Shown piece by piece: positions 12,744 to 60,722 of a DNA stretch of 64,000 nucleotides. Under the pieces are notes generated by a model, which saw only the letters and a program-made list of their open reading frames with translations, made no database searches and had not been told where the DNA came from. Made by a program: the position numbers and the translations under genes. This stretch comes from Mugil cephalus (Eukaryota; Chordata; Actinopteri; Mugiliformes; Mugilidae). The stretch is taken from positions 36,685,599-36,749,598 of the forward strand of contig NC_061770.1 in NCBI RefSeq assembly GCF_022458985.1, read 5' to 3'. How positions within the stretch are numbered: the first letter of the stretch is position 1; the number at the start of each line of letters is the position of its first letter.

Positions 12744-12805
12744 AGAGAACGTGCCTGAATAATCTGGAGTAAACTGAATTGACCAAGTCTACACCCACGA
12801 TGGAG
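12744..12805 (+). CDS. GVIN1-like: Exon 2 of gene B, carries the main start codon (12800)
   Basis: Acceptor TTTCTTTCAG at 12743 and donor GAG|GTAAAC at 12805. Only the last six bases, ATGGAG, code; they join in phase 0 to exon 3 to give MEEISDEDF. I chose this start because the upstream ATG in exon 1 terminates in this exon and because all copies keep ATGGAG at the donor. Confidence 0.6.
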
Positions 12806-12901: not shown

Positions 12902-13010
12902 GAGATCAGTGATGAAGACTTCTTAGTTAACCTTTCCCATGAGGAAGTAGAGGATCTTCCAGCAGCATGTTCTGTCTGTGAGGATGATCATCAACAGACT
13001 GATACAGGAG
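12902..13010 (+). CDS. GVIN1-like: Acidic exon 3 of gene B
   Basis: 109 nt between TCAAAAG and GGAG|GTAAAG, phase 0 in and phase 1 out. It encodes an acidic N-terminal segment (EISDEDFLVNLSHEEVEDLP then a Cys/Asp-rich end QQTDTG). It is conserved in D and E, shortened by five codons in C, and present as a relic near 30001. No known domain; low complexity suggests an unstructured tail. Confidence 0.65.
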
Positions 13011-13688: not shown

Positions 13689-13853
13689 ATCCTTGCCCTC
13701 ATGTGACGAGGACAGTGTATAATATCAGCAGTGAGTTAGTGTCTCTTTTGGAAAGTCCTGCTGGTGAACTGGAGAGATACATTGTGACCACATGCAGGGA
13801 GGGAGACATTGTGCACGAGACAACGGACACAAACCTGAAAGCTGCAGATATAA
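13689..13853 (+). CDS. GVIN1-like: Truncated FN3 cassette exon of gene B
   Basis: 165 nt, phase 1-1, between CCAG and ATAA|GTAAGT. It aligns with the first two thirds of the FN3 cassettes: NISSELVSLLESPAGELERY corresponds to SISSESVSLQWDTPAGEVESY. It lacks the hallmark LxPGxxY strand and has lost the core Trp (LQW to LLE). It would splice in frame but could not fold as a complete FN3. It may be a decaying exon; the C copy is frameshifted. Confidence 0.5.
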
Positions 13854-16907: not shown

Positions 16908-17153
16908 ATGTTCCTCCACCAGTAGAAGGTGTTGACACAGTTTCTCTTGGCTTGGCATCCACTGGTTCCTCTGTCAGGTATAAACTTCATGTAGATTATA
17001 CCTGTAAGACACAAGGAGGCAGTGTGGACCTGGAAGACTGCAGCCCTTTAGATATTGTAGGACTGAATCCTGGGACTGAGTATACCTTCAGCATCACAAG
17101 GATAGCAGAAAATGGAGTTAAAAGCACAGTGACCTCTATATCTGCCTGTACAG
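16908..17153 (+). CDS. GVIN1-like: FN3 cassette exon 1 of gene B
   Basis: 246 nt, phase 1-1, acceptor TTGACAG and donor ACAG|GTAAAG. It encodes an 82-residue FN3-like domain starting DVPPPVEGVDTVSLGL, with the family's closing strands LNPGTEYTFSITRIAENG and ending SACTG. The paralogue at 48680-48943 in D is 18 nt longer; here a short stretch after PPVE (six codons, ATVLHA-like) is missing, which may shorten strand A. Confidence 0.75.
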
Positions 17154-17281: not shown

Positions 17282-17542
17282 AGCCTGTTCCTCCTGCATC
17301 AGTAACAGTTTCCAGTATCAGCAGTGAGTCAGTGTCTCTGCAGTGGGACACTCCTGCTGGTGAAGTGGAGAGCTACAATGTGACTTGTTGCAGTGAAGGA
17401 GAAACTGTGCAGGAGCTGAACACAGATACAAACAGTGTGACCTTCAACAATTTGAGGCCAGGGGTGTGTTACTCCCTCCATGTTTGTGCACTACTCAAAA
17501 ATGCAAGAAGAAGCAGCCCAACTGAGACATCTGCCACAACAA
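17282..17542 (+). CDS. GVIN1-like: FN3 cassette exon 2 of gene B
   Basis: 261 nt, phase 1-1, acceptor CTCACAG and donor ACAA|GTAAGT. FN3 hallmarks are the core Trp in SESVSLQWDTPAG, the YNVTCC strand, and LRPGVCYSLHVCA (LxPGxxY). It is close to the D cassettes at 45396 and 52132 and to E at 61766. Its last base A joins AG of the main exon to give Lys, keeping the frame into KTHLKSILEDLDLEQ. Confidence 0.8.
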
Positions 17543-25400: not shown

Positions 25401-27141
25401 TGACATCGAAACTGGAATGACAGAACTCGACAGGATCAAGAAGAATCATACGAAAGAAATTGAAAAAGCAGTGCATGCTTTAATTGATGAATGTCGAAAG
25501 AGCAAAGTCCAGATGACAGACAAACAGCTGGACAAAAGATTTGATGAGACGTGGAAGGAAACACTGGAGAAACTGTCTTTTAATAAACTAAAGGCCACCG
25601 ATGTCTTCACCAGAGTAGAGTTCTACCTCAGATCAAATCTGTCACATAGGGGAGGTCACGCAAGTGAATTGCTGAGTCAGAAAAACCTGAGAGAGTGTGG
25701 ACTGGAGCCTTTTAAATGTACAGCTGAAGGATTGTTAAACCAATTGAAACACACAGTGAGCAAGTGGTTCAATCTTAAAGATCACATCAAGGTTGTACAA
25801 AACATGGCTGACAACATCATAGATGCCTGCACTCTGTCTGTGGATGAAAAACTGAACAGAAAGACCAATTACCATGATACTTACATCCAGGAGATCCTAC
25901 ACATCATCGATGAGCGTCTGAAAAACAATTCAGATGTTAAGATAGACATGGAGTTTGAAGTCTCTCTAAAACAGCACATCTGTGGATCTGCAGCCAGAAA
26001 ATTCCAGAAGATGCAAGAAGATTTCATACAAGTAAATGACCCCTATAGTTGCCTGATGAAAAACAAGGCAAAATATTGTGCTGATTTCAAAGATGTTTTC
26101 CATGAACGAGACCAGTGTCAGAAGAAGGCAGAAGAATTCACGGACCAATGCCTGAAGCCTGCAGTTGAGGTCTTTGTCAATCGTTCTCTGGGTCCTAATA
26201 TCACTGATGAAATGCTGAAACAAGACCAGTTCAGCACAAGGATGTCTTTCCAGTATTCACTTTTACTGGATTTGCTTAAAAATGACACGTTCAAAGAGTA
26301 TTTGAGCTACAATGACTGTTATGAAAGTTTTGTAAAGAAAAGAATAGTTGAAAAAATAGTAAAGTATTTTTCAAGTTGCTCTGCAACACTTGAGTTTGAG
26401 GAGCGACATCTTCAGTCAAGTATCAGCAGCATAAACGACGCCATCAAAAAGGCCAAAGCAGGAAAGAGTGGTGACATGAAGACATTTGTTGAAAGAATCT
26501 GCAAAGAACTTGGAGATAAACTGGTCATTTCCCAGGATGCTCTTGGTGCTTTCATGATCCTGAACAATGCCAACCAGGAACAGTTTGCTGACTGGCTCAT
26601 AGTGTCTGTGAAGGACATGGCAGAAACTCTTAGAGAAAAGTTTAAAGAATCAAACATCAAAACGAAACTACAACATCTCCATGTGCAGCCCCAGAATGAA
26701 CTCTTCACCAGAGTGATTGGATGTGGCAAACAGTGTCCATTCTGTAAAACTCCTTGTGAGGCAGGAGGAAAAGACCATACGAAGCATTTTACTTCACTGC
26801 ATCGGCCAGAGGGTCTGGGAAGATACAAGTGGGATGAATCAAAAAAACTTGTCACTGACATATGCTCATCATTGGTGACCAGTGAAACTCGTTTTCGCTG
26901 CAGTGCTACAAAAAATGAATGGCACCCTTACAAGCGTTACCATGAAATCTTCCCAGACTGGGATATTCGTCCAGATGTGAGCCTTCAGGCATCAGACTAC
27001 TGGAAATATGTGATGACAACGTACAACAAGGAGTTTGCTGAAGAATATGAAGCAGAGCCTGCTGATATTCCATCCACCTGGAATAATATCACACCAGAGA
27101 AGGCAAAACAAAGTCTCAAAGAGTCATTTAGCATCAAGTGA
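22473..27141 (+). pseudogene. GVIN1-like: VLIG/GVIN1-like giant exon, gene B, single frameshift
   Basis: Starts AG ACA CAT after the acceptor, phase 1. The first frame is open to 24985 and includes the conserved N-terminal region, the helical linker deleted in A and C, the P-loop GVQSTGKS near 24289 and DTEG near 24450. A single G is missing from the run in ACGGGAACTGG near 24824 (C has ACGGGGAACTGG), which moves translation out of frame after the G domain. The correct frame resumes immediately and stays open to 27141, including the Cys/His tail. The rest is intact, so this is either a very young pseudogene or an assembly/sequencing error in a homopolymer. Confidence 0.85.
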
Positions 27142-37795: not shown

Positions 37796-40700
37796 AGACA
37801 CACCTGGAGATGTTATTGGAAGATATGGGGTTGGACCATTATTACAGAGACAAACTAACACTCAAAAGAATGCTTCAGATTGATGAGAAGACCATCACTG
37901 ATGAACAACCTGCCATGTCCAAAACAGACCTTGCGTGGCATTTTCTAAAGAAATTGGTGATGGTTAATGTGTCAGCAAGGAATGTGAATTGTACATTTGC
38001 AAGTGAGTCAAACTGTGATGCGGCATCTGAGGTTACACAGTTTGATTTTGATGATAATGCTATTTTTGATGAGCAAAGTTCAAACATGCTAAACCCCCTT
38101 GACTTAATCACTGCTCTCTTTCTATGCTCTGATGGTTTTGTGCAGCAGGAAATGACTCTCAAGATGTCTATGTGTCAGTTCTCTGTGCCTCTGCTGCTTC
38201 CTAATAGTGACACACAGCAGTGTACACTTATGCTGTGGGCCATGAGAGACATTGTTAAGAAGTACAGACCTCAGTCTCTCTCAGACTCCAAGGGCTTCAT
38301 TGAAGAGAGAATTGTTCTTTCTGAACTTCCCATGGTTTCTTTTGTGAGACTGGGTGAGTGCACCTTGTCTAAGTCTGAGATCCTCAACAAGCTCCTGAGC
38401 AATTCTCACCAATACCACGACACTTTTGTTCACCACAACATGGAGGGTGGAGACAGTCCAAGAAGAATATCCAATGGACTGACTGAAATTACTTGGTATC
38501 TTCCTGGAGGAAACAATAACATGGACATTTTCAGTGAGCCTGTGGCTGTTGCTAACCTTCGTGGGGACATTGCTTCATTTAAAACCCAATATTCATTTCT
38601 GTGTCACACATCTGCAGCAGTTTTTGTCTTCTTTGACAATTTAGACTCTGGGTGCAATCTGCTGACGAACCGAACTGGCAAGGCACAGATCTTCTTGGTG
38701 GGTAACCACAATGGGAAAAACTTCAGCTTAGAGGCTCTAAGAAAGGTAGCAGCTCAGTTGGGTTTGACTAAGAACAACATCATTCTTAAGACGAAACAGA
38801 AAAATTATGCAGACTTTGTCAAAAGTTTGAGGAAGGCAGTCAGTGATGTAGTTGAGAATTCACAAGCGAAGATGCGAATAGAGCAGATGGCTGACATTGC
38901 CCATGAACTTGGGATTTTGGTTGATGAAGATGCTTCAGAGTGCAAGAATGGAAAGAAAAATGCAGATGCCATCACTGAAGAAATCCAAGATTTCTGAAAT
39001 GGATCCGAATGAACCTTGATAACGTGTCTCGTGAAAAACTGTCTGGACTCAGGGAGCGGTACAAAGAAAAATGCAATAATCCTAAAAACAAAGAGGAGAT
39101 TAAGAAAATAGACAAACAGCTTTCTAACAGCTCACTGGGGACTGAACACTTCTTCCGTGAAATGGGTCAGATCTATGAGGCTTCACTTTCTCTTCAAGAG
39201 ACAGACCCATCACATCTACATCAACCTCAACAGCAACAGCAACAGTTACAGTATTTACCCAAACTCTGTGCTGAACTGTTGCTTGATGGATTTCCCCTTG
39301 AGCTGGTAGATGGAGATGCATCCAACATACCTCTCAGATGGGTGAGTGCTGTTCTCTCTCAGCTCAATGTCTTGGTGTCTTCAAAGAACAAGATACGAGT
39401 TGTCACAGTTCTTGGAGTTCAGAGCACAGGAAAGTCCACTCTCCTTAATACCATGTTTGGAGTGCAGTTTGCAGTCAGCAGTGGTCGATGCACTCGAGGT
39501 GCCTTCATGTTGCTCATCAGAATCAATGAAGATGCTAAGAAACTTCTCAACTGTGACTTCATGGTGATCATTGACACTGAGGGCTTAAAGTCCCCAGAGC
39601 TGGCACAGCTGGACAACAGTTATGAGCATGACAATGAGCTTGCAACACTTGTTGTAGGGTTGAGTGATGTCCCCATTATTAATATTGCAATGGAGAATTC
39701 ATCAGAAATGAAGGACATCCTACAGATAGTTGTGCATGCTTTTCTCAGGATGAAGGAGGTGGGTAAAAAGCCTAAATGTCAGTTTGTTCACCAGAACGTG
39801 TCGGATGTTTCCGCTCATGAGAAGAACTTACGAGACAGGAAACTGCTCTTGCAACAGCTGAATGAGATGACCCAGGCAGCAGCAAAAATGGAACGGAAAG
39901 AGGAGAACAAGAGCTTCAGTGATGTGATGGAGTACTGCCCAGACACGGGGAACTGGTACATACCTGGACTCTGGAATGGAAACCCACCAATGGCACCAGT
40001 CAATGCAGGATACAGTGAGGCTGTATATGAGCTCAAGAAGAACATCATCAAGCTACTAGGAGATTGTCAGTCATCTACCAATAACATTAATGAGTTTGAA
40101 AAGTGGGTGAAGAGCTTGTGGAATGCAGTAAAGCATGAAAACTTCATCTTCAGCTTCAGAAACAGCCTGGTCGCTGATGCATACATGAAGCTCTGCACAG
40201 AATACAACAAATGGGAATGGGAATGCAAAAAGGGAATGTACACCTGGGTGACAAATACAGAAACTAGAATTTCCAATTTTGGTACAGTTGCAGATAACTC
40301 TCAGGTATCCAACATGAGAGATTTTCTGACAAGTTTGAAAACTGAAGCTTCCACAGAGCTGTCTACATGGGAGGAAAAGCTTCACGACAATCTGTCAGAA
40401 TACTTCAAGCAAACAGAAGGTCACGTCTATCTGGTTGAAGGATACAAAGAGGAGTTCTCAAACAGTATAAAGAGCCTTCGACGAGAAATGGAGAGATCTG
40501 TAGTTGATCAGCTGACAGCAGCAGCTGACATCAAAACTGGAATGACAGAACTCGACGGGATCAAGAGGAATCATACGGAAGAAATTGAAAAAGCAGTGCA
40601 TGCTTTAATTGATGAATGTCGAAAGAGAAAAGTCCACATGACAGACAAACAGCTGGACAAAAGATTTGATGAGACATGGAAGGAAACACTGAAGAAACTG

Positions 40701-42266
40701 TCTTTTAATAAACTAAAGGCCACAGATGTCTTCACTAGAGTAGCTCACTGCCTCAGATCAAATCTGTCACATAGGGGAGGTCACGCAAGTGAATTGTTGA
40801 GTCAAAAAAACCTGAGAGAGTGTGGACTGGAGCCTTTTAAATGTACAGCTGAAGGATTGTTAAACCAATTGAAACACACAGTGAGCAAGTGGTTCAATCT
40901 TAAAGATCACATCAAGGTTGTACAAAACATGGTTGACAACATCATAGATGCTTGCACACAGTCTGTGGATGAAAAAATGAAAAGAAAGACCAATTACCAT
41001 GATACTTACATCCAAGAGATCCTACACATCATCGATGAGCGTCTGAAAAACAATCCAGATGTTAAGATAGACATGGAGTTTGAAGTCTCTCTAAAACAGC
41101 ACATCTGTGGATCTGCTGCCAGAAACTTTCAGAAGATGCAAGAAGATTTCATACAAGTAAATGACCCCTATGAATGCCTGATGAAAAACAAGGCAAAATA
41201 TTGTGCTGATTTCAAAGAGGTTTTCCATGAACGAGACCAGTGTCAGAAGAAGGCACAAGAATTCACGGACCAATGCCTGAAGCCTGCAGTTGAGGTCTTT
41301 GTCAATCGTTCTCTGGGTCCTAATATCATTGATGAAATGCTGAAACAAGAGCAGTTCAGCACAAGGATGTCTTTCCAGTATTCAGTTTTACTGGATTTGC
41401 TTCCAAAGGACAGAGTTGAAGACTATTTGAGATACAACAGTTCTTATGAGAGTTTCATAAAGAAAAGAATACTTGAACAAATAGAAGAACATTTTTCACG
41501 CTGCTCTGCAACACTTGAGTTTGAGGAGCGACATCTTCAGTCAAGTATCAGCAGCATAAACGACGCCATCAAAAAGGCCAAAGCAGGCAAGAGTGATGAC
41601 ATGAAGACATTTGTTGAAAGAATCTGCAAAGAACTTGGAGATAAACTGGTCATTTCCCAGGACGCTCTTGGTGCTTTCATGATCCTGAACAATGCCAACC
41701 GGGAACAGTTTGCTGACTGGCTCATGGTGTCTGTGAAGGACATGGCAGAAGCTCTTAGAAAGAAGTTTAAAAAATCAAACATCAAAACGAAACTACAACA
41801 TCTCCATGTGCAGCCCCAGAATGAACTCTTCACCAGAGTGATTGGATGTGGCAAACAGTGTCCATTCTGTAAAACTCCTTGTGAGGCAGGAGGAAAAGAC
41901 CATGCAAAGCATTTTACTTCACTCCATCGGCCAAAGGGTCTGGGAAGAATCAGGTGGGATGAATCAAAAAAACTTGTCACTGACATATGCTCGTCCTCTG
42001 TGACCAGTGAAACTTGTTTTCGTTGCAGTGCTACAAACAATAAATGGCACCCTTACAAGCGTTACCATGAAATCTTCCCAGACTGGGATATTCGTCCAGA
42101 TGTGAGCCTTGAGGCATCAGACTACTGGAAATATGTGATGACAACGTACAACAACAAGTTTGCTGAAGAATATGAAGCAGAGCCTGCTGATATTCCATCC
42201 ACCTGGAATAATATCACAGCAGAGAAGGCAAAACAAAGTCTCAAAGAGTCATTTAGCATCAAGTGA
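37796..42266 (+). pseudogene. GVIN1-like: VLIG/GVIN1-like giant exon, gene C, one 241-bp deletion
   Basis: The first frame runs from the acceptor to TGA at 38995-38997 and holds the conserved N-terminal region. The junction ATCCAAGA|TTTCTGAAATGG near 38990 matches D with bases 54094-54334 removed. That is 241 bp, about 80 codons of the helical linker before the G domain. The second frame, from ATG 39009 to 42266 (1085 codons), is fully open. It contains the P-loop GVQSTGKS near 39415, DTEG near 39575, the helical region and the Cys/His tail. No other lesion is seen. It is a pseudogene for the full protein, yet a G-domain protein could be made by internal initiation or an unannotated splice. 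Confidence 0.85.
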
Positions 42267-44520: not shown

Positions 44521-44568
44521 CACGTGACCATTTCAACAGAAGTGAAACTGAGTTCAGCCATTAAAAGG
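44521..44568 (+). promoter_or_regulatory. E-box, ISRE and TATA-like box of gene D
   Basis: CACGTG at 44521-44526, AGAAGTGAAACTGAG at 44538-44552 (GAAGTGAAACT fits the ISRE GAA-N2-GAAACT core) and TTAAAAGG at 44561-44568. The trio has the same order in E. The short distance between ISRE and TATA-like box is typical of interferon-inducible promoters. Confidence 0.65.
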
Positions 44569-44591
44569 AGACTCCTTTTTTTTTTTTTTTT

Positions 44592-44707
44592 TCCCATTTC
44601 CTTTTTCCAAAGGAGCGCACAAGGTGAAGAGAGGTGCTTCATCTACAGTAACAGTAGAATACAACATGATTTAGATATTTTGCCATGACCAGAACTCTTC
44701 TACAAAG
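44592..44707 (+). other. Non-coding exon 1 of gene D (start approximate)
   Basis: Ends CTACAAAG|GTGAG. ATG at 44685 opens an upstream ORF, MTRTLLQR, that continues across the splice and stops at TAA 45072-45074, before the main ATG. Transcription start inferred about 25-30 bp after the TATA-like box. Confidence 0.5.
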
Positions 44708-45049
44708 GTGAGCTGCTTAACTTCATAGTTTACATTTTTAATTAGGTATACGCATAATGAGAAAAGTGAGAAATGACTGTATATAAGAGAAAAACAGAGC
44801 TGTTATTTAGTCAAGCGATTATTCATGCTGGGCTTTTAGAGCGTCCTGTGAACTTAAGCACTGACGCTCTGTGTTTTTAATGTTTTCAATTATTTATTTT
44901 TTTGCTTTCAACCTGCTTTGACTTGCAAACATCATATATGGCTCTTTTTTCCCCCTTGTTGAAACGTCTATCAATATGAAGTTCATGAAATATTAAGAGT
45001 CAGTTAAGGATAAAAACTTGAAATTTTTTGTCTCATTTCTTTCAAATAG

Positions 45050-45107
45050 AACGTGTCTGAATAATCTGGAGTAAACTGGATTGACCCAGTCTACACCCAC
45101 GATGGAG
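45050..45107 (+). CDS. GVIN1-like: Exon 2 of gene D with start codon at 45102
   Basis: The acceptor here is CAAATAG, because the CAG used in B and C has changed; the exon therefore starts a few bases later. ATGGAG|GTAAAC ends it. Six coding bases, phase 0. Confidence 0.55.
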
Positions 45108-45187
45108 GTAAACTGATATGTTAATGAGAGCCTGCTGGTCACAGTGTGTATGGGACCATTTTATATTTCACTCTCGTTTATCAAAAG

Positions 45188-45296
45188 GAGATCAGCGATG
45201 AAGACTTCTTAGTTAACCTTTCCCATGAGGAAGTGGAGGATCTTCCTGCAGCATGTTCTGTGTGTGAGGATGATCATCAACAGACTGATACAGGAG
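45188..45296 (+). CDS. GVIN1-like: Acidic exon 3 of gene D
   Basis: 109 nt between TCAAAAG and GGAG|GTAAAG. Encodes EISDEDFLVNLSHEEVEDLP and a Cys/Asp-rich end, identical in plan to B and E. Joins FN3-1 as GEPVP. Confidence 0.65.
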
Positions 45297-45395
45297 GTAA
45301 AGGTCAACTTTAGGAGATGTGTCAATATGAACATTGCACGGTTATTCCCAGAGTTAGCATGTTTTTAATTGTTTTTATTATTATTGTTGTCACAG

Positions 45396-45653
45396 AGCCT
45401 GTCCCTGCATCAGTAACAGTCTCCAGTATCAGTAGTGAGTCAGTGTCTCTGCAGTGGGACACTCCTGCTGGTGAAGTGGAGAGCTACAATGTGACTTTTT
45501 GTAATGAAAGAGAAATAATACAAGAGCTGAAGATAGATACAAACAGTGTGACCTTCAACAGCCTGAGGCCAGGGGAGTGTTATTTCTTCTATGTGTCTAC
45601 ACAACTTAAAAATGGAAGAAGAAGCAGGCCAACTGAGACATGTGCCAAAACAG
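45396..45653 (+). CDS. GVIN1-like: FN3 cassette 1 of gene D, 5' splice site mutated
   Basis: 258 nt, phase 1-1. FN3 hallmarks: SESVSLQWDTPAG, SYNVTF, LRPGECYFFYV. The acceptor TCACAG is normal, but the donor reads ACAG|CTAAGT where E has ACAG|GTAAGT, so the invariant GT is lost. Because it is phase 1-1, skipping it would still leave gene D in frame (about 1826 instead of 1912 residues). Read-through into the intron would stop at TGA 45680-45682. Confidence 0.65.
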
Positions 45654-46503
45654 CTAAGTCGAGGTCCAACATAATACAATGAAGAAACTAAGACATTCTT
45701 TTTTAAAAAGTTAGTTCACTTATAAATATTGTCACGCCACATCGTGAACATCCAGAGATAAAAGGAGCCATTCTGATGAAAGCAGCATTTCATTTCATTT
45801 CCTATATTTCTTGTTGTCCTGACCTGAACAAACTACACTTTAAAGAAAAGATTACACCTCCAGCTACAGATGGAGGAAGAAAATGTATATGTATATATAA
45901 TTGTTGTAAGTATATGAAGGACTTTTAAAATGATCTGGAAACACTCACAGTTTAGGAATATTATCTATAATAATAAAGTATATAATAAAAAGGAATACTG
46001 TGGGGGGAAAGCAACGTTGGCGCTAGAGGTTAAATTATTTTCTGTATATTTTCTTTTGGTTCTATGGCTTGAGGGGAGGGGCCTAACACTGTTTTTTTTT
46101 TTTTTTATTATTGTCTTCAATCACTGCAGGGATAAAGTGCACCAAGTCATCTGAAGGCAGTCTTAGAAATTTTTGTTTAGGAAATGTTATGTAAATGAAC
46201 TCACATACATGAAATGAAAATGAAAGCTTGGTTACTTTCAATTGTTGGTTTTCGTGATTTTTCCATTATATGCCTATAGAGTGAAGATAAAAACTGTGGA
46301 AAAGAAGAACAGCAAACCTACCGTTTGAGGTTTTAGTTAAATATAACCCTTTGTTTTTTTCTAGATTTGGGTGATAGAAAATGTAATACGTTGTAGCACA
46401 GAGGGAGGAAGACTGGCTGTCACTTTTCAGCATTTGAACCTTCTGAGATAATCATGTTCCTCAAGAAATGAAGAGTTAAAGGTTTGGTTCTTGTTATTTT
46501 CAG
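45654..46503 (+). other. Intron of gene D, no gene seen
   Basis: Parallels 62024-62971 in E. Relative to E it lacks about 98 bp near 46012 (E 62390-62490). Holds a T run near 46091. Confidence 0.55.
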
Positions 46504-46550
46504 AGAGAAGTTGCCTGAGTGAAGAGAATGAGTCTGCACTCACAGTGGAG
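46504..46550 (+). CDS. GVIN1-like: Exon 5 of gene D (exon-2-like)
   Basis: 47 nt, phase 1 in, phase 0 out, acceptor TTATTTTCAG, donor GGAG|GTAAAG. Encodes RSCLSEENESALTVE. Its DNA resembles exon 2 (AGAGA..GT.GCCTGA at the start, TGGAG|GTAA at the end) but here it is read as coding. Confidence 0.6.
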
Positions 46551-47016
46551 GTAAAGATACGTGTACATGTCAAACATAAAATAAAAATACTCCTCTCATT
46601 GGATAATGTGTATGGAATATTTACATTTAAAGTTACTGTCATTATTATTATAATAATTTTCATTAGTCGTCTTCTGAGGTGTTTCAAATTTGCGTGAGCT
46701 AAAATGAGAGACACTGAAAATGGAAATGATGTGCAAATGGTTTACAAGGCAACACCCCTAACAACATAAGCTGGCCTGATTTGAGTCAGGAGTTGATCTA
46801 TACTCCTGAAAAGGGTATTTGGGGCCTTATAAGGCCATCATTTCTGCCATAAAACTACAATTTGTTTCTGACCTTAGGTCCTTAGGTCCAATGACTTCCA
46901 ATATTTCTAATTTGATGATTAATGGAGTAAAGGTTTGTGGATATATTGTCAGTATATAACAGTAATATATAGTATGTATGACTTTAGTTATTTCTATTTT
47001 TCCTCATTTGTCAAAG
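46551..47016 (+). other. Intron of gene D with conserved palindrome
   Basis: Closely matched in E. Contains the perfect 14-bp palindrome GGCCTTATAAGGCC at 46823-46836 (E 63291-63304). No exon. Confidence 0.5.
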
Positions 47017-47125
47017 GGATCCAGCAGCGAAGATTCAGCTGTTGATTTTTTCTATGAGGCACCAGACGACCTTCCATCAACAAGTTCTGCTGGGAAAGAT
47101 GACTGTGAACAGGCTGATACAAGTG
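47017..47125 (+). CDS. GVIN1-like: Acidic exon 6 of gene D (exon-3-like)
   Basis: 109 nt, exactly the length and phase (0 in, 1 out) of exon 3. Encodes GSSSEDSAVDFFYEAPDDLP then STSSAG, Asp/Cys and QADTSG, alignable with exon 3 (ISDEDFLV...EEVEDLP...QQTDTG). Acceptor TCAAAG and donor AGTG|GTAAC are normal. It is an internal duplicate of the N-terminal acidic exon. Confidence 0.65.
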
Positions 47126-47525
47126 GTAACAATCAGTTTTATAACACTAGAAAGTGTTAATGAACTAAATCACGTTGAGTTCAAAAATAATTTGGGTAAT
47201 ATCATGTGGGTGAAGATTTGTTTGTTTTTTGTTTTTTTTTTCGTTAAGATTATTTTGTCAGTGAATTCACTTCCCTGCAGCATTTCAAATTATTCTGACT
47301 GCACCATAACATTTTGTAAGGTATAAAAGAAATGCTTCTTTTATTTAAAAATTCAACTACGGTAAAAAGTTAAAATATAATTGCTAAAGAAAATAAATCT
47401 CCAGTGGCATAAATACTGGAAATCACTTGTGATGCAATGACAACTGGATGTGAAGGAGCTGAATTACTGATGAAAAGAAGATGAAACCCTACGGTTTCTA
47501 CAAGAACCTCAGTCACTTTTCATTA
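47126..47525 (+). other. Intron of gene D up to SINE
   Basis: AT-rich, matched by 63594-63983 in E. Nothing else seen. Confidence 0.5.
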
Positions 47526-47756
47526 GGGGAGCTGTGGAGAAGTGGTGAGAGGCACAGCTTGGGTTTGAAGGGTCACAGGTCCAAGGCTGTGGTGCCGAGC
47601 AAGCACCGAACCCCCAATTTGCTCCCCAGGCGCAGCCACCTGAGGCTGCAGCCCAGTGCTCCAACTGTACACACTACTGTGTGAACAAATGGATGGGTCA
47701 AAATGCAGAGATGGAATTTCCCCATGTCCCCAAAAAGGGAACAATTTATTTATTTA
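47526..47756 (+). repeat. tRNA-derived SINE in gene D intron
   Basis: The head GGGAGCTGTGGAGAAGTGG and box B-like GGGTTTGAAGGGTCACAGG precede a body with GCACCGAACCCCCAATTTGC and TCCCCAGGCGC and an ATGCAGAG...ATTTCC stretch, then an (ATTT)n tail. This is the layout of a common fish SINE. The same insertion begins at 63984 in gene E, so it predates the D/E duplication. Confidence 0.75.
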
Positions 47757-48679
47757 TTTATTTGTGCAAGACACACTCTACATGAAGCCTTTCCCAGAAT
47801 AAAGTTTAAGCATGTTAATGGACAAAACTGGTTACATCCATAGTTAAGACGACTAACACCAATGCAGATGTGAAGCAAACTCAACTGTTCAATAACCTGA
47901 CTACTACTTTAAGATTTAGAGCTATATTGTTCAATATGATAACTCATTTATTCACGGCTGGCAGGGAATTCATTGCTGATGATTCTCCAGAGGGTTCAGA
48001 AAGTGTGGACGGGTCCACTCATGGAGTCAGCGAGCCATAAGGCTGGTAAGAGTTTTTAGAAACTGAAGAGTGAACAATATTTGAGCTGTCAAAAGAGTTT
48101 TGCGTCGTTCATTCAGAAAAAAAGCACATTACTCTTATTAGCACTGCAACTGATGTCTGTTCATTAATGATGAGAGCCTTTTAAAATACTCTGTCCTTGT
48201 AGCTGTTAACTAGTCACATTCAGTGTATGGTCACATTATGTTTCTATAGCGCCAAATAACTGAAACAAACCTTAAAAAAAATATACAAAACATGTTATAT
48301 TAAAATGACAGAAACCATCCTTGAAAAAAAATTATTTCACGTGTGCTTGAGTGTTTTAGTTTAGCCCAAATATACTATTATAATTATATACTTTATATTA
48401 TACCTTATAGCTTAAATATATGACTTACTGCAGGAGTGAACTGCAGGTTTGAACTTAAGGGCCTGTCACTCAAATTACAGTCTTCAAGTTGAACCTGTAT
48501 GTGTGATTGTTGTTGTTTTTTTTATATACACTTTATTGTATGACCTCAATTAAAGAACTTAACTAATAAAAAAGGCAAAACAAACAAAAGATTAATCTCC
48601 ATTGTCAGAAATTGCTTACCTTCTGAGTAGTGAAAACATTCTGTAATGTGCTGAATGGTATTCACTTCTATTTTGGCAG
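47757..48679 (+). other. Intron of gene D before FN3-2
   Basis: AT-rich; no exon or assignable repeat. Ends with the TTTTGGCAG acceptor. Confidence 0.5.
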
Positions 48680-48943
48680 ATGTTCCTCCACCAGTAGAAG
48701 CAACTGTTCTCCATGCTGGTGTTGACACAGTTTCTCTTGGCTTGGCATCCAGTGGTTCCTCTGTTAGGTATAAACTTCATGTAGATTATACCTGTAAGAC
48801 ACAAGGAGGCAGTGTGGACCTGGAAGACTGCAGCCCTGTAGATGTTGTAGGACTGAATCCTGGAACTGAGTATACCTTCAGGATCACAAGGATAGCAGAA
48901 AATGGAAATCAAAGCACAGTGACCTCTATATCCGCCTGTACAG
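48680..48943 (+). CDS. GVIN1-like: FN3 cassette 2 of gene D
   Basis: 264 nt, phase 1-1, donor ACAG|GTAAAT. Encodes an 88-residue FN3-like domain starting DVPPPVEATVLHAGVDTVSL and containing LNPGTEYTFRITRIAENG. Paralogue of B 16908-17153, which is six codons shorter. This type lacks the core Trp and is distinct from the SLQWDTP type. Confidence 0.75.
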
Positions 48944-49246
48944 GTAAATCTGAAATAATAATGAGTTGGTTGAATTAAAATTACAATTGTTTCCCAGTGT
49001 AGACAGTTGTTGGCTAAATAGTCCCTGAACTGAACTAAAACCTACAGAAATATAGTTATTTATGACACATATATTGTTATATTTATTGTTATTTTTTTGG
49101 AGGTAGGCATCATGGCAGTGTGTACAATCTCTCCACTGGCCTTTACAGTGGCAATGGAGGTGATTATCAGGGCTTCGAAATGGGTGGTAGGTGGAGAAAA
49201 GCTGCATGGAGGGCTTTGTCTCCCCCCAATTAGGGCCTACATGGAT

Positions 49247-49300
49247 GACATGACGACATGGATGACATGGATGACATGGATGACATGGATGACATGTGAT
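49247..49300 (+). repeat. 9-bp tandem repeat (GACATGGAT)n inside the RT palm
   Basis: GACATGGAT is repeated about five times and encodes (TWM)n directly after the catalytic YMDD. It has replaced the residues that normally follow the motif in this family. Confidence 0.75.
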
Positions 49301-49574
49301 GTCAACTGCTCCATGTTAAATAGCAACTTGGAGTGGGCTAGGATGAAAGTGAAGTCGAGTAAGTCTTGGAGCATCTCAGTTGTTAAAGGAAAGGTAGTAG
49401 ATAAGAAGTTTGTCATAAAAGAGGAGGTGATTCCCACAGTGCTTGAGAAGCCAGTGAAAAATCTGGGAAGGTGGTATGATGCAAGTCTCAGTGATAGAGC
49501 GCAGTTTGCTGGATTGAAACAGGAAATGATTAAAGGCATTTCGAGCATAGACCACCAGGGTGCTCTAAGCCAGG

Positions 49575-50195
49575 TGTAAAATGCAGTTTGTTGTGCTTTT
49601 GTGCTGTGTCATCATGTGTGATGTGTTATTGCTGCTGCCAATTAGTGCTGCGTATAGCAGCATGCAGGAAGAAGCGAGCTGCTGCTGAGCATGGTCGGAA
49701 TGGAGTTGCTGCAGGTCAGTTTGGAATTGTTTGGCACAGTTTTTGGTGATTTATCTGAACTATTTAAACTATTAATGCTTCATATGGACTATTTCTCATA
49801 ACCTGGAAGGGTGTTGTATGAGTTTGGGGTGGAGATATTTCTGTGGGTTGTTTTTGTTGTGCTTGGGGATAAAGTAAACTGAATATACTAAAAGTGTTGA
49901 ACTGTGAAACCAATGCATGTATACATACCTTCAAATTTGTTGTGCCTTTAAAGAATACTGAATGGCCATTCAAAAGATTGTCATTTATTTTTGTTAAATA
50001 CTGTTCTGTTATCTATTTTGTTTAATATCCTTAATACACTATTATTGATATCAAGAAATTTCATTGTCATTTGTGACTGTTTCCGTTCATTTCCTCTCTG
50101 AGCCGAGCTTATGTCTTCTGACAAGGAGACTCATTAACCAGAGAAACCGGTTGACATATCGGTTATATTTTACATCATATATGCTACAGTACCCA
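49575..50195. mobile_element. About 620-bp insertion interrupting the LINE fragment
   Basis: RT sequence stops after GISSIDHQG at about 49565 and resumes with AAAGTTGAGGTTATGG at about 50196, in the order expected for one continuous LINE ORF. The intervening AT-rich sequence has no identified coding content. CCAGG occurs at both junctions and could be a short target duplication. Class unknown. Confidence 0.4.
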
Positions 50196-51460
50196 GGAAA
50201 GTTGAGGTTATGGTGTATGCTTTTTGGGTTATTGCCCTGACTAATGTTACCACTGACTGTATATGAGGTTCCTCTGACAAAGTTTGAGAAGCTTGAAAGG
50301 ATGATTAATTCATCAATTAAGAGATGGCTTGGTGTCCCACGCTGCTTAAGCGGCGCAGCCTTGTATGGGAAAGGCATACTGGAGCTCCCAGTAACTAGCC
50401 TAACAGAGGAGCTTAAGTGTGCTGAGGTGAGACTGGAGATGACTCTTACTCAGACAAAAGATCAAATAGTTAGGTGTACAGCCCCCACGGTTAAAACAGG
50501 GAGGAAGTGGAATCCGAGAGATACGGTTCAGGAAGCACAGGCTGCCCTCAGGCTCAGGGATATCATAGGTCATGTACAGCACAGGTGTGGAGGCCTGGGG
50601 CTGTGTGCAGGGAAACCTCTGTGGAGCAAGGCATCAGCAGCAGGAAAGAGGAAGATGGTAGTGGAAGAAATTCATAGACAAGAAGAAGCGATGAGATGCA
50701 CTAAGACAGTGTCACAGACTAAGCAAGAACATTGGGTGAACTGGGAGAGTGTAGAGAAAAGGAAGTTGAATTGGAGAGAACTGTGGAGCATGGAGGCTAG
50801 TAGGATTAGATTTATGATAGGGGCTATTTATGATGTGCTGCCATCTCCCCGGAACCTAAACCAGTGGTTAGGGAATAATGTTGCCTGCCCACTCTGTTCG
50901 TGTGTATGTACACTTAGCCACATTCTGACAAATACCTGGCATCACAACCTGGTTCTGAAATGCTTAGCAGCTGCAATTGAGGGAAAACGGATTGAAGCAA
51001 ATTCCTGACGTGCTAAAAAGCAAATAGGCATATGATGGTTGTTTGGGGAGATAAGGCCAGACCAGCGAGAATCAGGCACAGCGCGGGGCAGCTAAGGGTG
51101 GGTGGAACCTAGGAGCTGAGGTATGATTTAAACGGCCGGCTAACTGTTCCAGAACATATAGCCATTATTTGCAAAAGACCAGAGTTGTTGTTGTGGTCCG
51201 AAGTGGAAAAGAATGTGTACTTTGTGGAACTTACTGTCCCGTGGGAAGACCGAGTGCAAGAGAGACAGATATGCGGAGATGGCAACAGAAGCTGAGCAGC
51301 GAGGCTGGAGCGCCTCTGTGCGACCAGTGGAGGTCGGTTGCCGTGGATTTGTTGTAACCATTGCTCTCCTGTATGTGTTGGGCATTCGCGGGAAAGAACA
51401 TAGAATTGCTAAAAAAAAAACAAAAAAACATGTCCCTGGCAGCGGATTGAGCAAGTGAGT

Positions 51461-51689
51461 GGCTGTGGCTAAGGAGGAAACACGCTAGATGGAGAGCAGG
51501 CTAAAGGTACTGTGTAGTGTTAGTAGTTAGCAATTGTTGGAGGGCTAATCTAATCTTGAAAATCACACGGTGGTGTGGTGGCTACATTGAGGGGGGCGAC
51601 TCCGGGACGCTGGAGCTCACTGTTAAGCCTTCTTGAGGTGTTCTTGAGGCCTAATGTAACGAAACATTGGTGAAGGGAGGTGCCCACTT
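51461..51689 (+). other. Gene D intron, unassigned
   Basis: Sequence between the LINE end and the minisatellite; no feature seen. Confidence 0.4.
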
Positions 51690-52030
51690 GAAAACATGAA
51701 TGATGTGCCGCATACTGCCTACTGCTGTTGGCTAGGCTTGTTAGCTGGTGTTTTCTTGTGTGTTACTTCTGATCCTAGCGAAAGGCAAGGTGTTGGTTTA
51801 AGTGTAGTTGCATGTCCCATCACCTCTCATCACCTGCTGCTGTGGAGTAGGCTAGGTAGCTGGTGTCTGGTAGTATCCTAATTCTGATTTTGGCAGAAGG
51901 GAGAGGTGTTGGTTGAAGTGTAGTTGCATGTCCCATGACCTCTATTATCTACTGCTGCTGGCTAAGCTAGGCTAGTTAGTAGCTGACTGCTGGTCTGCTG
52001 GTTGGGTTTTCAGTTGGACTAGGCTTCTAA
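51690..52030 (+). repeat. Minisatellite related to 17750-18295
   Basis: Three units of about 115 bp marked by CTACTGCTGTTGGCTAGGCT-type phrases near 51717, 51833 and 51950. It begins with CCACTTGAAAACATGAATGA, as the B array does, and here lies just upstream of FN3-3. Confidence 0.65.
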
Positions 52031-52131
52031 ATGAATTTTGCCTCAGATCAAGGCACGAGGGATTGTAACGTCTTGTCCTGTGTATTAATGAATATTTTAA
52101 TTAATTTATCATTGTTATATTGTTGTCACAG

Positions 52132-52392
52132 AGCCTGTCCCTCCTGCATCAGTAACAGTTTCCAGTATCAGCAGTGAGTCAGTGTCTCTGCAGTGGGACA
52201 CTCCTGCAGGTGAAGTGGAGAGCTACAATGTGACTTGTTGCAGTGAAGGAGAAACTGTGCAGGAGCTGAAGATAGATACAAACAGTGTGACCTTCAACAG
52301 CCTGAGGCCAGGGGTGTGTTATTACCTCCATGTTTGTGCACAACTCAAAAATGGAAGAAGAAGCAGGCCAACTAAGACATCTGCCACAACAG
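52132..52392 (+). CDS. GVIN1-like: FN3 cassette 3 of gene D with GC-type donor
   Basis: 261 nt, phase 1-1, acceptor TGTCACAG. FN3 hallmarks SESVSLQWDTPAG, YNVTCC, LRPGVCYYLHVCA. The donor reads ACAG|GCAATA: B has ACAA|GTAAGT at this place. GC donors are used rarely, usually with strong flanks, and this one is weak. Its last base G joins AA of the main exon to make Glu (TTETYLK). Confidence 0.7.
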
Positions 52393-52901
52393 GCAATAAA
52401 AGAAAAATAAGATAACAAAATGAAAAATGAGCAAAGTTTGATTTAATTTGACTGATTTGACTGGATCATAACTAAGTTGTAGGCAAAGCTTCAGAATGCG
52501 AAAACAAGAAAGTGGAGCAAGAAACAACAAGTACAGAGTAGGCAATTCATTGAAACCTGCATTTTGACTCAAACAGGCTGTTCACGTTTAGACCATAACC
52601 TCAAAAAGGCAAAATCTGCACAAACATTTGCCTCCCTTTAATTTAAACAAAACTAAATTAATTCCATGTATGTGTATTGCTGAGACCTAACAAAACTGCT
52701 CAATGTCATTGTTTGATAACATGACATAAATGTTCCAAGGACAATTTCTGAAGTAATTTAAATACAGCCTTTCCTCAGTAAATACTGACTTGCTGTCTAC
52801 TGAATCAATATTCTTACAGGAAAACTAAGCTAAACATGCTACATGCTTTATTGTGCAATGATAAATAATGAAAAAAATTACCACCATCTGCTTCCCCACA
52901 G
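52393..52901 (+). other. Intron before main exon of gene D
   Basis: AT-rich, not clearly similar to the corresponding intron of A, B or C. Ends TGCTTCCCCACAG at 52901. The open frame extends back to ATG 52868 through this intron end, which I regard as chance. Confidence 0.55.
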
Positions 52902-55900
52902 AAACATACTTAAAGAGTCGATTGGAGAGTCTCGGCTTGGAGCAGCACTACAGACAGAAGCTATCACTCAGTCAAATACTACAGATTGATGAGACGACCA
53001 ACAATGATGAACAACCTGCCATGTCTAAATCAGACCTTCCATGGTATTTTCTAAAGAAACTGTTGATGGTTAACGTGTCAGCAAGGAATGTGAATTATAA
53101 ATCTGCATGTGAGTCAAACTGTGATGCTGCATCAGAGATTACAGAGTTTGATTTTCCTAATCTGCTTGGCAGTGCAAATGCAGTTGACACGATAAACCCC
53201 CTTGACTTAATCACTGCTCTCTTTCTATGTTCTGATGGTTTTGTGCAGCAGGAAATGACTCTCAAGATGTCTATGTGTCAGTTCTCTGTGCCTCTGCTGC
53301 TTCCCAATAGTGACACACAGCAGTGTACCCTTATGCTGTGGGCCATGAGAGACATTGTTAAGAAGTATAGACCTCAGTCTCTCTTAGACTCCAAGGGCTT
53401 CATTGAAGAGAGAATTGTTCTTTCTGAAATTCCCATGGTTTCTTTTGTGAGGCTGGGTGAGTGCACCTTGTCTAAGTCTGAGATCCTCAACAAGCTTCTG
53501 AGCAATTCTCAGCAATACCATGACACCTTTGTTCACCACAACATGGAGGGTGGAGACAGTCCAAGAAGAATATCCAATGGACTGACTGAAATTACTTGGT
53601 ATCTTCCTGGTGGAAACAAGAACATGGACATTTTCAGTGAGCCTGTGGCTGTTGCTAACCTTCGTGGGGACATTGCTTCATTTGAAACCCAATATTCATT
53701 TCTGTGTCACACATCTGCAGCAGTTTTTGTCTTCTTTGACAATTTAGACTCTGGGTGCAATCTGCTGACCAACCAAACTGACAAGGCACAGATGTTCTTG
53801 GTGGGTAACCACAATGGGAAAAACTTCAGCTTAGAGGCTCTAAGAAAGGTAGCAACCCAGTTGGGCTTGACTAAGAACAACATCATTCTTAAGACGAAAC
53901 AGAAAAATGATGCAGACTTTGTCAAAAGTTTGAGGAAGGCAGTCAGTGATGTAGTTGAGAACTCACAAGTGAAGATGCAAATTGAGCAGATGGCTGACAT
54001 TGCCCATGAACTTGGGATTTTGGTTGATGAAGATGCTTCAGAGTGCAAGAATGGAAAGAAAAATGCAGATTCCACCACTAAAGAAATCCAGGATGCCCTC
54101 AAGTACAAAGAAGACCAGCTTCCCTTGCAAGGCCAAATATGGAAGGACTTAACTCACTTGGAGAAAGAAGAATTCCGACTTCGACATGCTGGGTCTAAAA
54201 ACATAGAGGAGTATAAAAGTGATCTTCAGGTGCAGAAAAGAGAACTGCGTCAAAAACAGAACTCTTATGACATGTCCACTGCTATGACATGCTTCATCAA
54301 TGCAATATCAAGTTCCGGGACAGAGAGGCGTTACTTTCTGAAATGGATGCAAATGAACCTTGATAACGTGTCTCGTGAAAAACTGTCTGGACTCAGGGAG
54401 CGGTACAAAGAAAAATGCAAGAACTCTGACAACAAAGAGGAGATCAAGAAAATAGACAAACAGCTCTCTAACAGCTCACTGGGGACTGAACACTTCTTCC
54501 GTGAAATGGGTCAGATCTACGAGGCTTCACTTTCTCTTCCAGAGACAGACCCATCACGTCAACAACTACAGCATTTACCCAAACTCTGTGCTGAACTGTT
54601 GCTTGATGGATTTCCCCTTGAGCTAGTAGATGGAGATGCATCCAACATACCTCTCAGATGGGTGAGTGCTGTTCTCTCTCAGCTCAATGTCTTGGTGTCT
54701 TCAAAGAACAAGATACGAGTTGTCACCGTTCTTGGAGTTCAGAGCACAGGAAAGTCCACACTCCTTAATACCATGTTTGGAGTGCAGTTTGCAGTCAGCA
54801 GTGGTCGATGCACTCGAGGTGCCTTCATGTTGCTTATAAGAATCAATGAAGATACTAAAAAACTTCTCAACTTTGACTTCATGGTGATCATTGACACTGA
54901 GGGCTTAAAGTCCCCAGAGCTGGCACAGCTGGACAACAGTTATGAGCATGACAATGAGCTTGCAACACTTGTTGTAGGGCTGAGTGATGTCACCATTATT
55001 AATATTGCAATGGAGAATTCATCAGAAATGAAAGACATCCTACAGATAGTTGTGCATGCTTTTCTCAGGATGAAGGAGGTGGGTAAAAAGCCTAAATGTC
55101 AGTTTGTTCACCAGAACGTGTCGGATGTTTCCGCCCATGAGAAGAACTTACGAGACAGGAAACTGCTCTTGCAACAGCTGAATGAGATGACCCAGGCAGC
55201 AGCAAAAATGGAACGGAAAGAGGAGAACAAGAGCTTTACTGATGTGATGGAGTACTGTCCAGACATGGGGAACTGGTACATTCCTGGACTCTGGAATGGA
55301 AACCCACCAATGGCACCAGTCAATGTAGGATACAGTGAGGCTGTATATGAGCTCAAGAAGAACATCATCAAGCTAGTGGGAAATTGTCAGTCATCTACCA
55401 GTAACATTGATGAGTTCGAGGAGTGGGTGAAGAGCTTGTGGAATGCAGTAAAGCATGAAAACTTCATCTTCAGTTTCAGAAACAGCCTGGTCGCTGACGC
55501 GTACATGAAGCTCTGCTCAGAATACAACAAATGGGAATGGGAATGTAAAAAGGAAATGTACGCCTGGGTGACAAATACAGAAACAAGAATTGCAAATTTC
55601 GGTACAGTTGCAGATAACTCTGAAATATCGGACAAGAGAGTTTTTCTCACTCATTTGAAAACTGAAGCTTCCACAGAGCTGTCTACATGGGAGAAAAAGC
55701 TTCAAGACAATCTGTCAGATTACTTCAAGCAAACAGAAGGTCACGTCTATCTGGTTGAAGGATACAAAGAGGACTTCTCAAACAGTATAAAGAGCCTTCG
55801 ACGAGAAATTGAGAGATCTGTAGTTGATCAGCTGACAGCAGCAGCTGATATCAAAACTGGAATGACAGATCTCGACAGGATCAAGAAGAATCATACGAAA

Positions 55901-57586
55901 GAAATTGAAAAAGCAGTGCATGCTTTGATTGATGAATGTCGAAAGAAAAAGGTCCAGATGACAGACAAACAACTGGACAAAAGATTTGATGAAATGTGGA
56001 AAGAAACACTGGAGAAACTGTCTTTTAATAAACTTAAGGACACCGATGTCTTCACTAGAGTAGCTCACTGCCTCAGATCAAATCTGTCACATCGGGGAGG
56101 TCACGCAAGTGAATTGTTGAGTCAGAAAAACCTGAGAGAGTGTGGACTGGAGCCTTTTAAATGTACAGCTGAAGGACACTACAACCGATTTAAACACGCA
56201 GTGAGCAAGTGTTTCAATCTTAAAGATCACATAATGATTCTACAAAACATGGCTGACAAGATCATAGGTCCTTGCACTCAGTTTGTAGGTGAAAAACTGA
56301 AGAGAAAGACAAATTACCACGATACTTACATCCAGGAGATCCTACACATCATTGATGAGAGTCTAAAAAACAATCCAGATGTTCAGATAGACATGGAGTT
56401 TGAAGTCTCCCTAAAACAGCACATATGTGGGTTTGCAGCCAGAAACTTTCAAAAGATGGAAGAAGATTTCATACAAGTAAATGACCCCTATAGATGCCTG
56501 ATGAAAAACAAGGAGAAGTTTTGTGCTGATTTCAAAGATGTTTTCCATGAACGAGACCAGTGCCAGAAGAAGGCACAAGAATTCACAGACCAATGCTTAA
56601 AGCCTGCAGTTGAGGCCTTTGTCAATCATTCCCTGGGTCTTACTATCATTGATGAAATGCTGAAACAAGAGCAGTTCAGCACAAGGATGTCTTTCCAGTA
56701 TTCAGTTTTACTGGATTTGCTTGAAAATGACACCTTTGAAGACTATTTGAGATACAACCGTTCTTATGAGAGTTTCATAAAGAAAAGAATACTTGAACAA
56801 ATAGAAGAGTGTTTTTCAAGCTGCTCTGCATCACTTGAGTTTGAGGAGCGACATCTTCAGTCAAGTATCAGCAGCATAAATGACGCCATCAAAAAGGCCA
56901 AAACAGGAGAGAATGGTGACATGAAGACATTTGTTGAAGGAATCTGCAAAGGACTTGGAGATAAACTGGTCATTTCCCAGGATGCTCTTGGTGCTTTCAT
57001 GATCCTGAACAATGCCAACTGCGAACAGTTTGCTGACTGGCTCTTAGTGTCTGTGAAGGACATGGCAGAAGCTCTTAGAGAAAAGTTTAAAGAATCAAAC
57101 ATCAAAACGAAACTACAAGATCTCCATGTGCAGCCCCAGATTGAACTCTTCACCAGAGTGATTGGATGTGGCAAACAGTGTCCATTCTGTGGCGCTCCTT
57201 GTGAGGCAGGAGGAAAAGACCATGCAAAGCATTTTACTTCACTGCACCGACCACAGGGTCTGGGAAGAATCAGGTGGAATGAATCAGAAGAACTTGTCAC
57301 TGACATATGCTCGTCCTCTGTAACCAGTGAAACTCATTTTCATTGCAGTGCTACAAACTATGAATGGCACCCTTACAAGCGTTACCATGAAATTTTTCCT
57401 GAATGGGATATTTGTTCAGACATGAGTCTTGAGGCATCAGACTACTGGAAATATGTGATGACAAAGTACAACAAGGAGTTTGCTGAAGAATATGATGCAA
57501 AGCCTGCTGATATTCCATTTGCTTGGATGATGATCTCATACAATCAGGCAGAACAAAGTCTCCAAATGTCATTTAACATCAAGTGA
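52902..57586 (+). CDS. GVIN1-like: VLIG/GVIN1-like very large GTPase, giant last exon of gene D, intact
   Basis: This is the only fully open main exon in the array (4685 nt, about 1561 codons). Spliced to the upstream cassettes it gives about 1912 residues. Family: dynamin-related very large interferon-inducible GTPases, expected to be cytosolic or nuclear. Order, in spliced numbering: acidic and FN3 region (1-351), conserved N-terminal region with LPWYFLKKLLMVNVSARNV and NPLDLITALFLCSDG (about 365-480), helical linker (about 755-840), then the G domain. The G domain has P-loop GVQSTGKS (963-970), RCTRG, DTEG (1016-1019) and, in the place of a canonical N/TKxD, FVHQNVSD (about 1086-1093). A long helical region follows, then a Cys/His-rich tail from about 1774 (C-x3-C-x2-C-x3-C, then H-x3-H). 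It ends AEQSLQMSFNIK. No enzymatic role has been shown for this copy; function is inferred from family. Confidence 0.92.
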
Positions 57587-60674: not shown

Positions 60675-60722
60675 CACGTGATTATTTCCAGAGAAGTGAA
60701 ACTGAGCTCAGTCATTAAAAGG
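60675..60722 (+). promoter_or_regulatory. E-box, ISRE and TATA-like box of gene E
   Basis: CACGTG at 60675-60680, GAGAAGTGAAACTGAG at 60691-60706 (the best ISRE/PRDI match in the window) and TTAAAAGG at 60715-60722. Same order and near-identical spacing to D. Confidence 0.68.

Follow-up and report, generated by a model that had tools for sequence, protein, structure and literature searches.

A local subfamily of VLIG/GVIN-type giant GTPase genes with predicted N-terminal FN3 exons in Mugil cephalus

We analyzed a 64,000-nt stretch of the Mugil cephalus genome (assembly GCF_022458985.1, contig NC_061770.1, C1:36685599-36749598; hereafter the window), which contains a tandem array of giant GTPase genes, designated here A to E. 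In gene D and its neighbor E, a set of fibronectin type III (FN3) exons and a giant exon for a GTPase of the VLIG/GVIN type are joined in one predicted reading frame. At the level of predicted gene structure, the FN3-VLIG fusion family exists, and as far as we searched (634.8 Mb of assembly in 24 contigs) it appears confined to one local subfamily on C1 in this genome.

As shown in Table 1, gene D is composed of eight coding exons. A previous sequence-only reading of this DNA had given their lengths as 6, 109, 258, 47, 109, 264, 261, and 4685 nt, and each of these was recovered exactly. Joined together, the exons make 5739 nt, or 1913 codons, with a single stop at the very end, and the proposal that FN3 domains and a VLIG-type GTPase share one predicted frame held, the order being FN3, FN3, FN3, and VLIG/GVIN-type giant GTPase. 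The profile search of the joined exons that had been suggested as a check matched the Pfam models fn3, URGCP, and URGCP_GTPase. The first and third FN3 domains (FN3a and FN3c) were recognized by fn3 at E=1.3e-14 and E=1.6e-15, respectively, and the second (FN3b) at E=1.7e-4 with 22.2 bits, which is under the 25-bit cut-off. For FN3b, an AlphaFold2 (AF2) model based on an alignment of eight rows, FN3a and FN3c among them, had an FN3 fold with a predicted local distance difference test (pLDDT) score of 86.7. The 50 matches listed for this model in a Foldseek search of PDB were FN3 domains or monobodies, or complexes or fusions holding one. FN3 character was thus found by Pfam for FN3a and FN3c and by AF2 and Foldseek for FN3b. 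No Pfam match over the cut-off was obtained for two acidic-module exons. The three FN3 exons are all of phase 1-1, which is ordinary for shuffled modules. In this respect the earlier description of phase-1 cassettes stood, while the term "all-symmetric" proved too wide: judged by length, the 47-nt exon goes from phase 1 to phase 0 and each 109-nt exon from 0 to 1, so that these exons are symmetric only pairwise.

The giant exon of gene D carries a VLIG/URGCP-type GTPase domain: it matched URGCP_GTPase (PF25683) over 396/396 positions at E=1.5e-198 and URGCP (PF25496) at E=1.9e-121. The GTPase part is encoded by this single exon, which is open throughout in both D and E. Motifs that we take to signify GTP binding are intact; in an alignment of eight paralogues the G1 motif GVQSTGKST (except T615) and the G3 motif DTEG are invariant.

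The strongest evidence that the D-type gene model is real, beyond chance, comes from paralogue E, which adjoins D, starts at 61444, and lies for about half of its length beyond the window edge. All eight of its exon lengths are the same as in D, GT-AG borders were found at 7/7 introns, and its frame is open with a predicted product of 1912 aa. E would make the three-FN3 form.

We determined the distribution of the family by genome-wide searches. URGCP_GTPase gave 46 pieces, grouped by hand into ~38 copies (8 on C1, 12 on chromosome 3 or C3, 17 on C20, and one on C9); for the large families such counts are lower bounds. The FN3c exon gave 12 matches. Six of them, at 81-100% identity, all adjoin C1 giant exons, one is the remnant in gene B on C1, and five weak ones (30-39% identical) lie on C7, C8, and C12. 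Only D, E, and B were found with FN3b (three matches, 93% or more), and the acidic leader exon N1 had seven matches, all on C1. We also scanned 10 kb upstream of further copies by tblastn (E 1e-3) and with a home-built FN3 profile run on open frames of at least 30 aa. An FN3 frame was seen in 1/19 of these stretches, on C1, and in none of those from C3 (0/12), C9 (0/1), C20 (0/3, of the 17 copies there), and other C1 copies (0/2). On these scans we rejected the view that VLIG copies of this genome carry FN3 in general. The profile, which gave nine FN3-bearing frames, had one further match in these stretches, 93 nt long with E 0.93, which is at chance level. The C3 and C20 copies form further VLIG arrays at C3:29.90-30.21 Mb (~12 copies) and C20:3.68-4.12 Mb (~17 copies).

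On C1 the number of FN3 cassettes differs from copy to copy. There are none in S686 (C1:35.686 Mb), one in S667 (C1:35.667 Mb, minus strand), two plus a remnant in B, and three in D and E. The phase is unbroken, so that the earlier suggestion of paralogues varying in cassette number before a common engine agrees with what we found. The engines of D, E, S667, and S686 share about 92-94% DNA identity in the stretch compared. S667 has an N1 of 76 nt in phase 1 and one symmetric 261-nt FN3 exon with a GT donor, and S686 has an N1-like leader exon of 85 nt ending in phase 1 and lacks an FN3 frame across the 10 kb that we read; in both, the giant frame is free of stops. The two are divergently oriented with their leader regions facing each other and GTPase matches ~18 kb apart. 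The start micro-exon ATGGAG/gtaa (the slash marks the exon border) was present in 6/8 C1 copies (B, C, D, E, S667, and S686). The leader of A lies beyond the window, with an N1 match at C1:36684680, and for a broken C1 copy at 36.6685 Mb no leader was found in 10 kb upstream.

Among the 12 chromosome-3 copies, five leaders were found by pattern, all ending in phase 1, and 6/6 giant exons read there begin in the matching phase, which suggests that these leaders splice to those giant exons. The chromosome-3 leader exon reads MDTEEQDPQ-like and differs from the C1 leader. FN3-bearing and FN3-less copies alike thus have, by predicted exon phase, a phase-1 slot ahead of the giant exon and behind the leader, and 1-1 FN3 exons would consequently be free to enter or leave it.

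To describe constraint, we compared D with E. The ratio of nonsynonymous to synonymous divergence (dN/dS) was 0.44 in exons 1-7 and 0.445 in the giant exon. The deficit of nonsynonymous changes had p=0.023 for the exons upstream of the giant exon and p=0.048 for the FN3 exons alone (rounded counts). No indel event was seen in 1054 coding nt of exons 1-7 vs. 16 in 3049 nt of introns 1-5, the chance of 0/16 being 0.009. Within the giant exon the GTPase core is the most constrained part (mean dN/dS 0.11-0.25 in codons 501-900). Averaged over the six pairwise comparisons among D, E, S667, and S686, dN/dS did not exceed 1 in any 100-codon window across the first 1311 codons of the giant exon; individual pairs went above this value within codons 1-100 and 201-300, two windows with a zero, small, or noisy dS. 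Codons 1-100 (52904-53203) were the most divergent window among the C1 copies, with a mean dN of 0.24 and dS of 0.36, next to a highly conserved core. The suggestion of a rapidly diversifying family found no support in these data: the FN3 part and the engine have nearly the same dN/dS between D and E, at a low divergence that makes this a modest test, and no excess of nonsynonymous change was found in the presumed recognition part. Positive selection on the FN3 exons was rejected.

The similarity of D and E is uneven along the genes. With dS of 0.115 in the giant exon vs. 0.048 upstream, the divergence of the giant exon is, judged from these estimates, older than that of the exons before it. 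Intron 6 measures 3188 nt in D and 1500 nt in E and is homologous little beyond its edges; for intron 7, the identity over 373 aligned columns is 54%. Such a mosaic is compatible with gene conversion, segmental or unequal exchange, and insertions, and is no proof of cassette swapping. Swapping of FN3 types, which the sequence-only reading had envisaged, was not apparent in the FN3 tree either, which groups the domains by type across genes rather than reshuffled. Type b (D, E, and B) had support of 100/100, type c (D, E, and B) 92/99, and type a (D and E) a weak 85/87; the S667 domain falls into the a/c part, where its branch point is not resolved.

In the light of these data we favor, at about even confidence, the reading of a tandem VLIG/GVIN-type array in which the C1 subfamily carries FN3 exons in the phase-1 slot and the FN3 array acts as an adaptor on an inducible, coat-forming GTPase. 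According to this reading the C1 genes would be interferon-inducible, as suggested by a perfect match to an interferon-stimulated response element (ISRE)-like motif, GAAGTGAAACTGA, upstream of D and E. These two are the only perfect sites in the window (0.14 expected; 2/100 shuffles reach two). Sites with one mismatch number 12 vs. 2.92 expected, and several of them lie within giant exons. The protein would be cytosolic, given an acidic N-terminus without the look of a signal peptide. By analogy with human GVIN1, the GTPase might form a coat, or a large oligomer, on targets inside the cell, and the N-terminal FN3 array would bind a target or a co-factor, thereby steering or spacing the GTPase. 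E would contribute a three-FN3 form and D a still constrained GTPase with, most likely, two FN3 domains. A further-reaching version, which we regard as rather unlikely, takes the phase-1 intron as a cassette slot that docks interchangeable cytosolic FN3 modules, so that paralogues with 0, 1, 2, or 3 FN3 domains coat different targets and skipping, forced in D, adds variants.

Several observations weigh against the adaptor reading. Two donors in D are weakened, the giant exons of A, B, and C are broken, and much of the array is decaying. Introns 2-5 of D and E are 96.8-99.0% identical, no less than the coding exons, and because of this and the low divergence, constraint between the two genes is only modestly shown. 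For FN3b, the D-B comparison gave a dN/dS of 0.82, near neutrality, on 10 changes, and branch counts for FN3b and FN3c together with B as outgroup (two synonymous and five nonsynonymous changes in D, four and three in E) are too small to tell. The sequences hold no hint of an FN3 binding partner. For giant-exon residues 1-1200, AF2 gave a model too poor to be of use (pLDDT 43.6), and coat formation therefore rests on family analogy.

The proposed adaptor role competes with a passive one, in which the FN3 array does belong to the protein but serves as spacer or stabilizer, with cassette number set by neutral birth and loss and no part in recognition. This alternative accounts equally well for the equal dN/dS of FN3 part and engine. 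It is also in line with the average absence of positive selection, with a, b, and c types that stay recognizable across genes, and with acidic modules between the FN3 domains that resemble linkers. FN3 is, on the other hand, a common protein-binding fold, and we consider a purely passive array rather improbable.

The splice sites of gene D deserve separate attention. Its FN3a donor reads AACAG/CTAAGT, the counterpart in E being AACAG/gtaagt, and the FN3c donor is GC (AACAG/GCAATA) where E has GT. GC is a rarer donor type, whereas CT is no splice donor. As the 1913-codon message would need a CT-AG intron, we rejected production of the full-length protein from D as it stands. The nearest GT dinucleotides, which lie 4 nt and 10 nt past FN3a, would both shift the frame. 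Leaving out FN3a (258 nt) preserves it and gives 1826 aa. Unless the C is an assembly error, the likeliest predicted product of D is this 1826-aa protein with two FN3 domains and FN3a skipped in frame. As an example of the fusion, D is thus a real gene with a damaged FN3a donor and, owing to that CT donor, a poor type specimen; E is the better one.

The same sites raise the question whether D is a dying copy, with normal splicing blocked by the CT donor and the giant exon not yet broken. Besides the CT and GC donors, the 3.2-kb intron 6 with its inserted sequence and the broken giant exons of the array members A, B, and C point in this direction. Yet, over 1311 codons of the giant exon, branch counts of 39 synonymous and 55 nonsynonymous changes for D resemble those of 30 and 42 for E, so that by this measure the giant exon of D shows no relaxation relative to E. 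Moreover, FN3a is symmetric and its skipping saves the frame, and the CT may stem from faulty assembly or represent a private allele. We thus find a dying D doubtful, to a similar degree as the passive array.

Where translation begins bears on the remaining alternative. The first Met within the giant exon of D is residue 40, and eight positions before it (L3, L7, L10, L12, L20, L26, I28, and P38) do not vary among eight paralogues, of which four share 48-49% identity with D. An invariant T1 was not counted, its codon being intronic, just before the acceptor, in the chromosome-3 rows. The conserved residues ahead of this Met suggest that translation most likely begins in the upstream exons. This is at odds with initiation within the giant exon, which the sequence-only reading had named among its own refuting outcomes, but compatible with FN3 skipping. 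Some chromosome-3 giant exons carry an ATG at codon 4. That FN3 exons are absent from most VLIG messages and persist as relics, with transcription starting near the giant exon or the leader splicing straight to it, as expected for FN3-less paralogues, is the least likely of the alternatives: it fits the leader and giant exon of S686 with no FN3 in 10 kb, the chromosome-3 copies read, which likewise have none, the lost FN3a donor of D, the truncated first FN3 of B, and the chromosome-3 ATG, but is opposed by the seven GT-AG introns and open frame that E retains across all cassettes, by indels common in introns and lacking in exons between D and E, and, as regards internal starts though not skipping, by the conserved residues before the first Met of D.

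With known VLIG/GVIN genes the C1 genes share a giant coding exon, URGCP and URGCP_GTPase matches far over the cut-off, tandem arrays, and an ISRE-like promoter site; they differ in that FN3 cassettes and a doubled acidic module separate the leader from the giant exon. For URGCP itself, the common ground lies in the names of the Pfam domains URGCP and URGCP_GTPase. The lone diverged copy at C9:12.545 Mb, which may be a URGCP orthologue, stands single outside the arrays, and no FN3 was found in its 10 kb upstream. Among solved structures, FN3c matches best the FN3 domains of fibronectin and tenascin (1fnf, E 7.8e-14), and phase 1-1 exons are likewise a feature of shuffled extracellular modules. 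Unlike in those proteins, the FN3 domains here precede a predicted cytosolic GTPase, a signal peptide is not evident, and FN3c has four cysteines. The interferon-inducible GBP, Mx, and IRG proteins, of which GBP2 gave a single faint match (E 0.063), likewise have a large GTPase engine and differ from the C1 genes in size, exon anatomy, and accessory domains.

Human GVIN1 is reported to be inducible by interferon gamma and to form a coatomer, or coat, on cytosolic bacteria. Two large GTPase domains are predicted for it, together with one N-terminal and one C-terminal domain, and "fibronectin" has 0 occurrences in the portion covered (PMC11974893). In two salmon studies, VLIG-1 had the top fold increase among antiviral genes in TO cells after type I interferon and salmonid alphavirus 3 (SAV-3) (PMC4337061), and VLIG1 was among virus-induced markers, with a variable response in some tissues (PMC5499884). 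No report of FN3 and VLIG/GVIN in one protein turned up in the portions covered of the open-access PubMed Central (PMC) literature searched, including PMC4337061, PMC6047052, PMC5499884, PMC10706248, and PMC11974893.

Automated annotation may already list FN3-VLIG fusions in other fish. Of the interferon-inducible GTPases, the VLIG/GVIN proteins belong to those understood least, also as to how they locate their targets. Engines of such similarity in one genome, combined with 0, 1, and 3 FN3 domains (2 if D skips), would provide a natural domain-deletion series for the question whether targeting is decided by the N-terminus.

Table 1. Features of the window, in window coordinates (slash, exon border).
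Feature	Position	Strand	Evidence or remark
ISRE-like element upstream of gene D	44539..44551	+	perfect match, GAANNGAAACTGA
Gene D, putative 5′ untranslated region (UTR) exon 1	44640..44707	+	donor AAAG/GTGAGC; start not defined; inferred from sequence
Gene D, putative UTR exon 2 holding the start micro-exon	45050..45107	+	UTR part inferred
Gene D, exon 1, start micro-exon, coding	45102-45107	+	ATGGAG/gtaaac; same start in the C1 copies named in the text
Gene D, exon 2, acidic leader module N1	45188..45296	+	relatives: B 100%, E 97%
Gene D, exon 3, FN3a	45396..45653	+	Pfam fn3; CT donor, broken vs. E
Gene D, exon 4, N2 (second acidic module), first half	46504..46550	+	joined frame, E comparison
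Gene D, exon 5, second half of N2	47017..47125	+	42-45% identical to N1; joined frame, E comparison
Gene D, exon 6, FN3b	48680..48943	+	AF2/Foldseek; homologues found only in D, E, B
Insert in gene D intron 6, degenerate, non-LTR-retroelement-like (LTR, long terminal repeat)	49050..51450	+	ends approximate
Gene D, exon 7, FN3c	52132..52392	+	Pfam fn3; GC donor (GT in E)
Gene D, exon 8, giant exon, URGCP and URGCP_GTPase	52902..57586	+	intact, 1560 full codons and stop; Pfam, frame
ISRE-like element upstream of gene E	60693..60705	+	at the place aligned with that of D
Gene E, coding exon 1	61444-61449	+	exon match to D
Gene E, coding exon 2	61558-61666	+	exon match to D
Gene E, coding exon 3, FN3a	61766-62023	+	exon match to D; GT donor
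Gene E, coding exon 4	62972-63018	+	exon match to D
Gene E, coding exon 5	63485-63593	+	exon match to D
Gene A, giant exon	3712..8901	+	broken, pseudogene-like
Gene B, start micro-exon	12800..12805	+	ATGGAG/gtaa
Gene B, leader N1 exon	12902..13010	+	
Gene B, truncated FN3 remnant	13691..13834	+	half a domain, 54-56% identity
Gene B, FN3b exon	16908..17153	+	18-nt in-frame deletion
Gene B, FN3c exon	17282..17542	+	GT donor
Gene B, giant exon	22473..27141	+	single frame break near 24825
Gene C, giant exon	37796..42266	+	internal deletion and frame change, pseudogene-like

The insert in intron 6 of D was labeled from motifs that we take to be non-LTR reverse transcriptase and CCHC fragments; Pfam gave nothing over the cut-off on two of its frames. 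It is G+C-richer, strand-skewed, and bears a GATGACATG mini-repeat. A search of the window with Rfam gave 0 matches at gathering score. In gene B both halves of the giant exon are open around the frame break, which could reflect a pseudogene or a sequencing error. The giant exons of A and C are recent duplicates (97.7% identity over 6.2 kb) and, since they have the same deletion and frame change, look like pseudogenes of one broken ancestor. Upstream of gene C, at 29886-30072, a stray ATGGAG/gtaa and a partial N1 form an orphan leader, perhaps of a lost gene copy.

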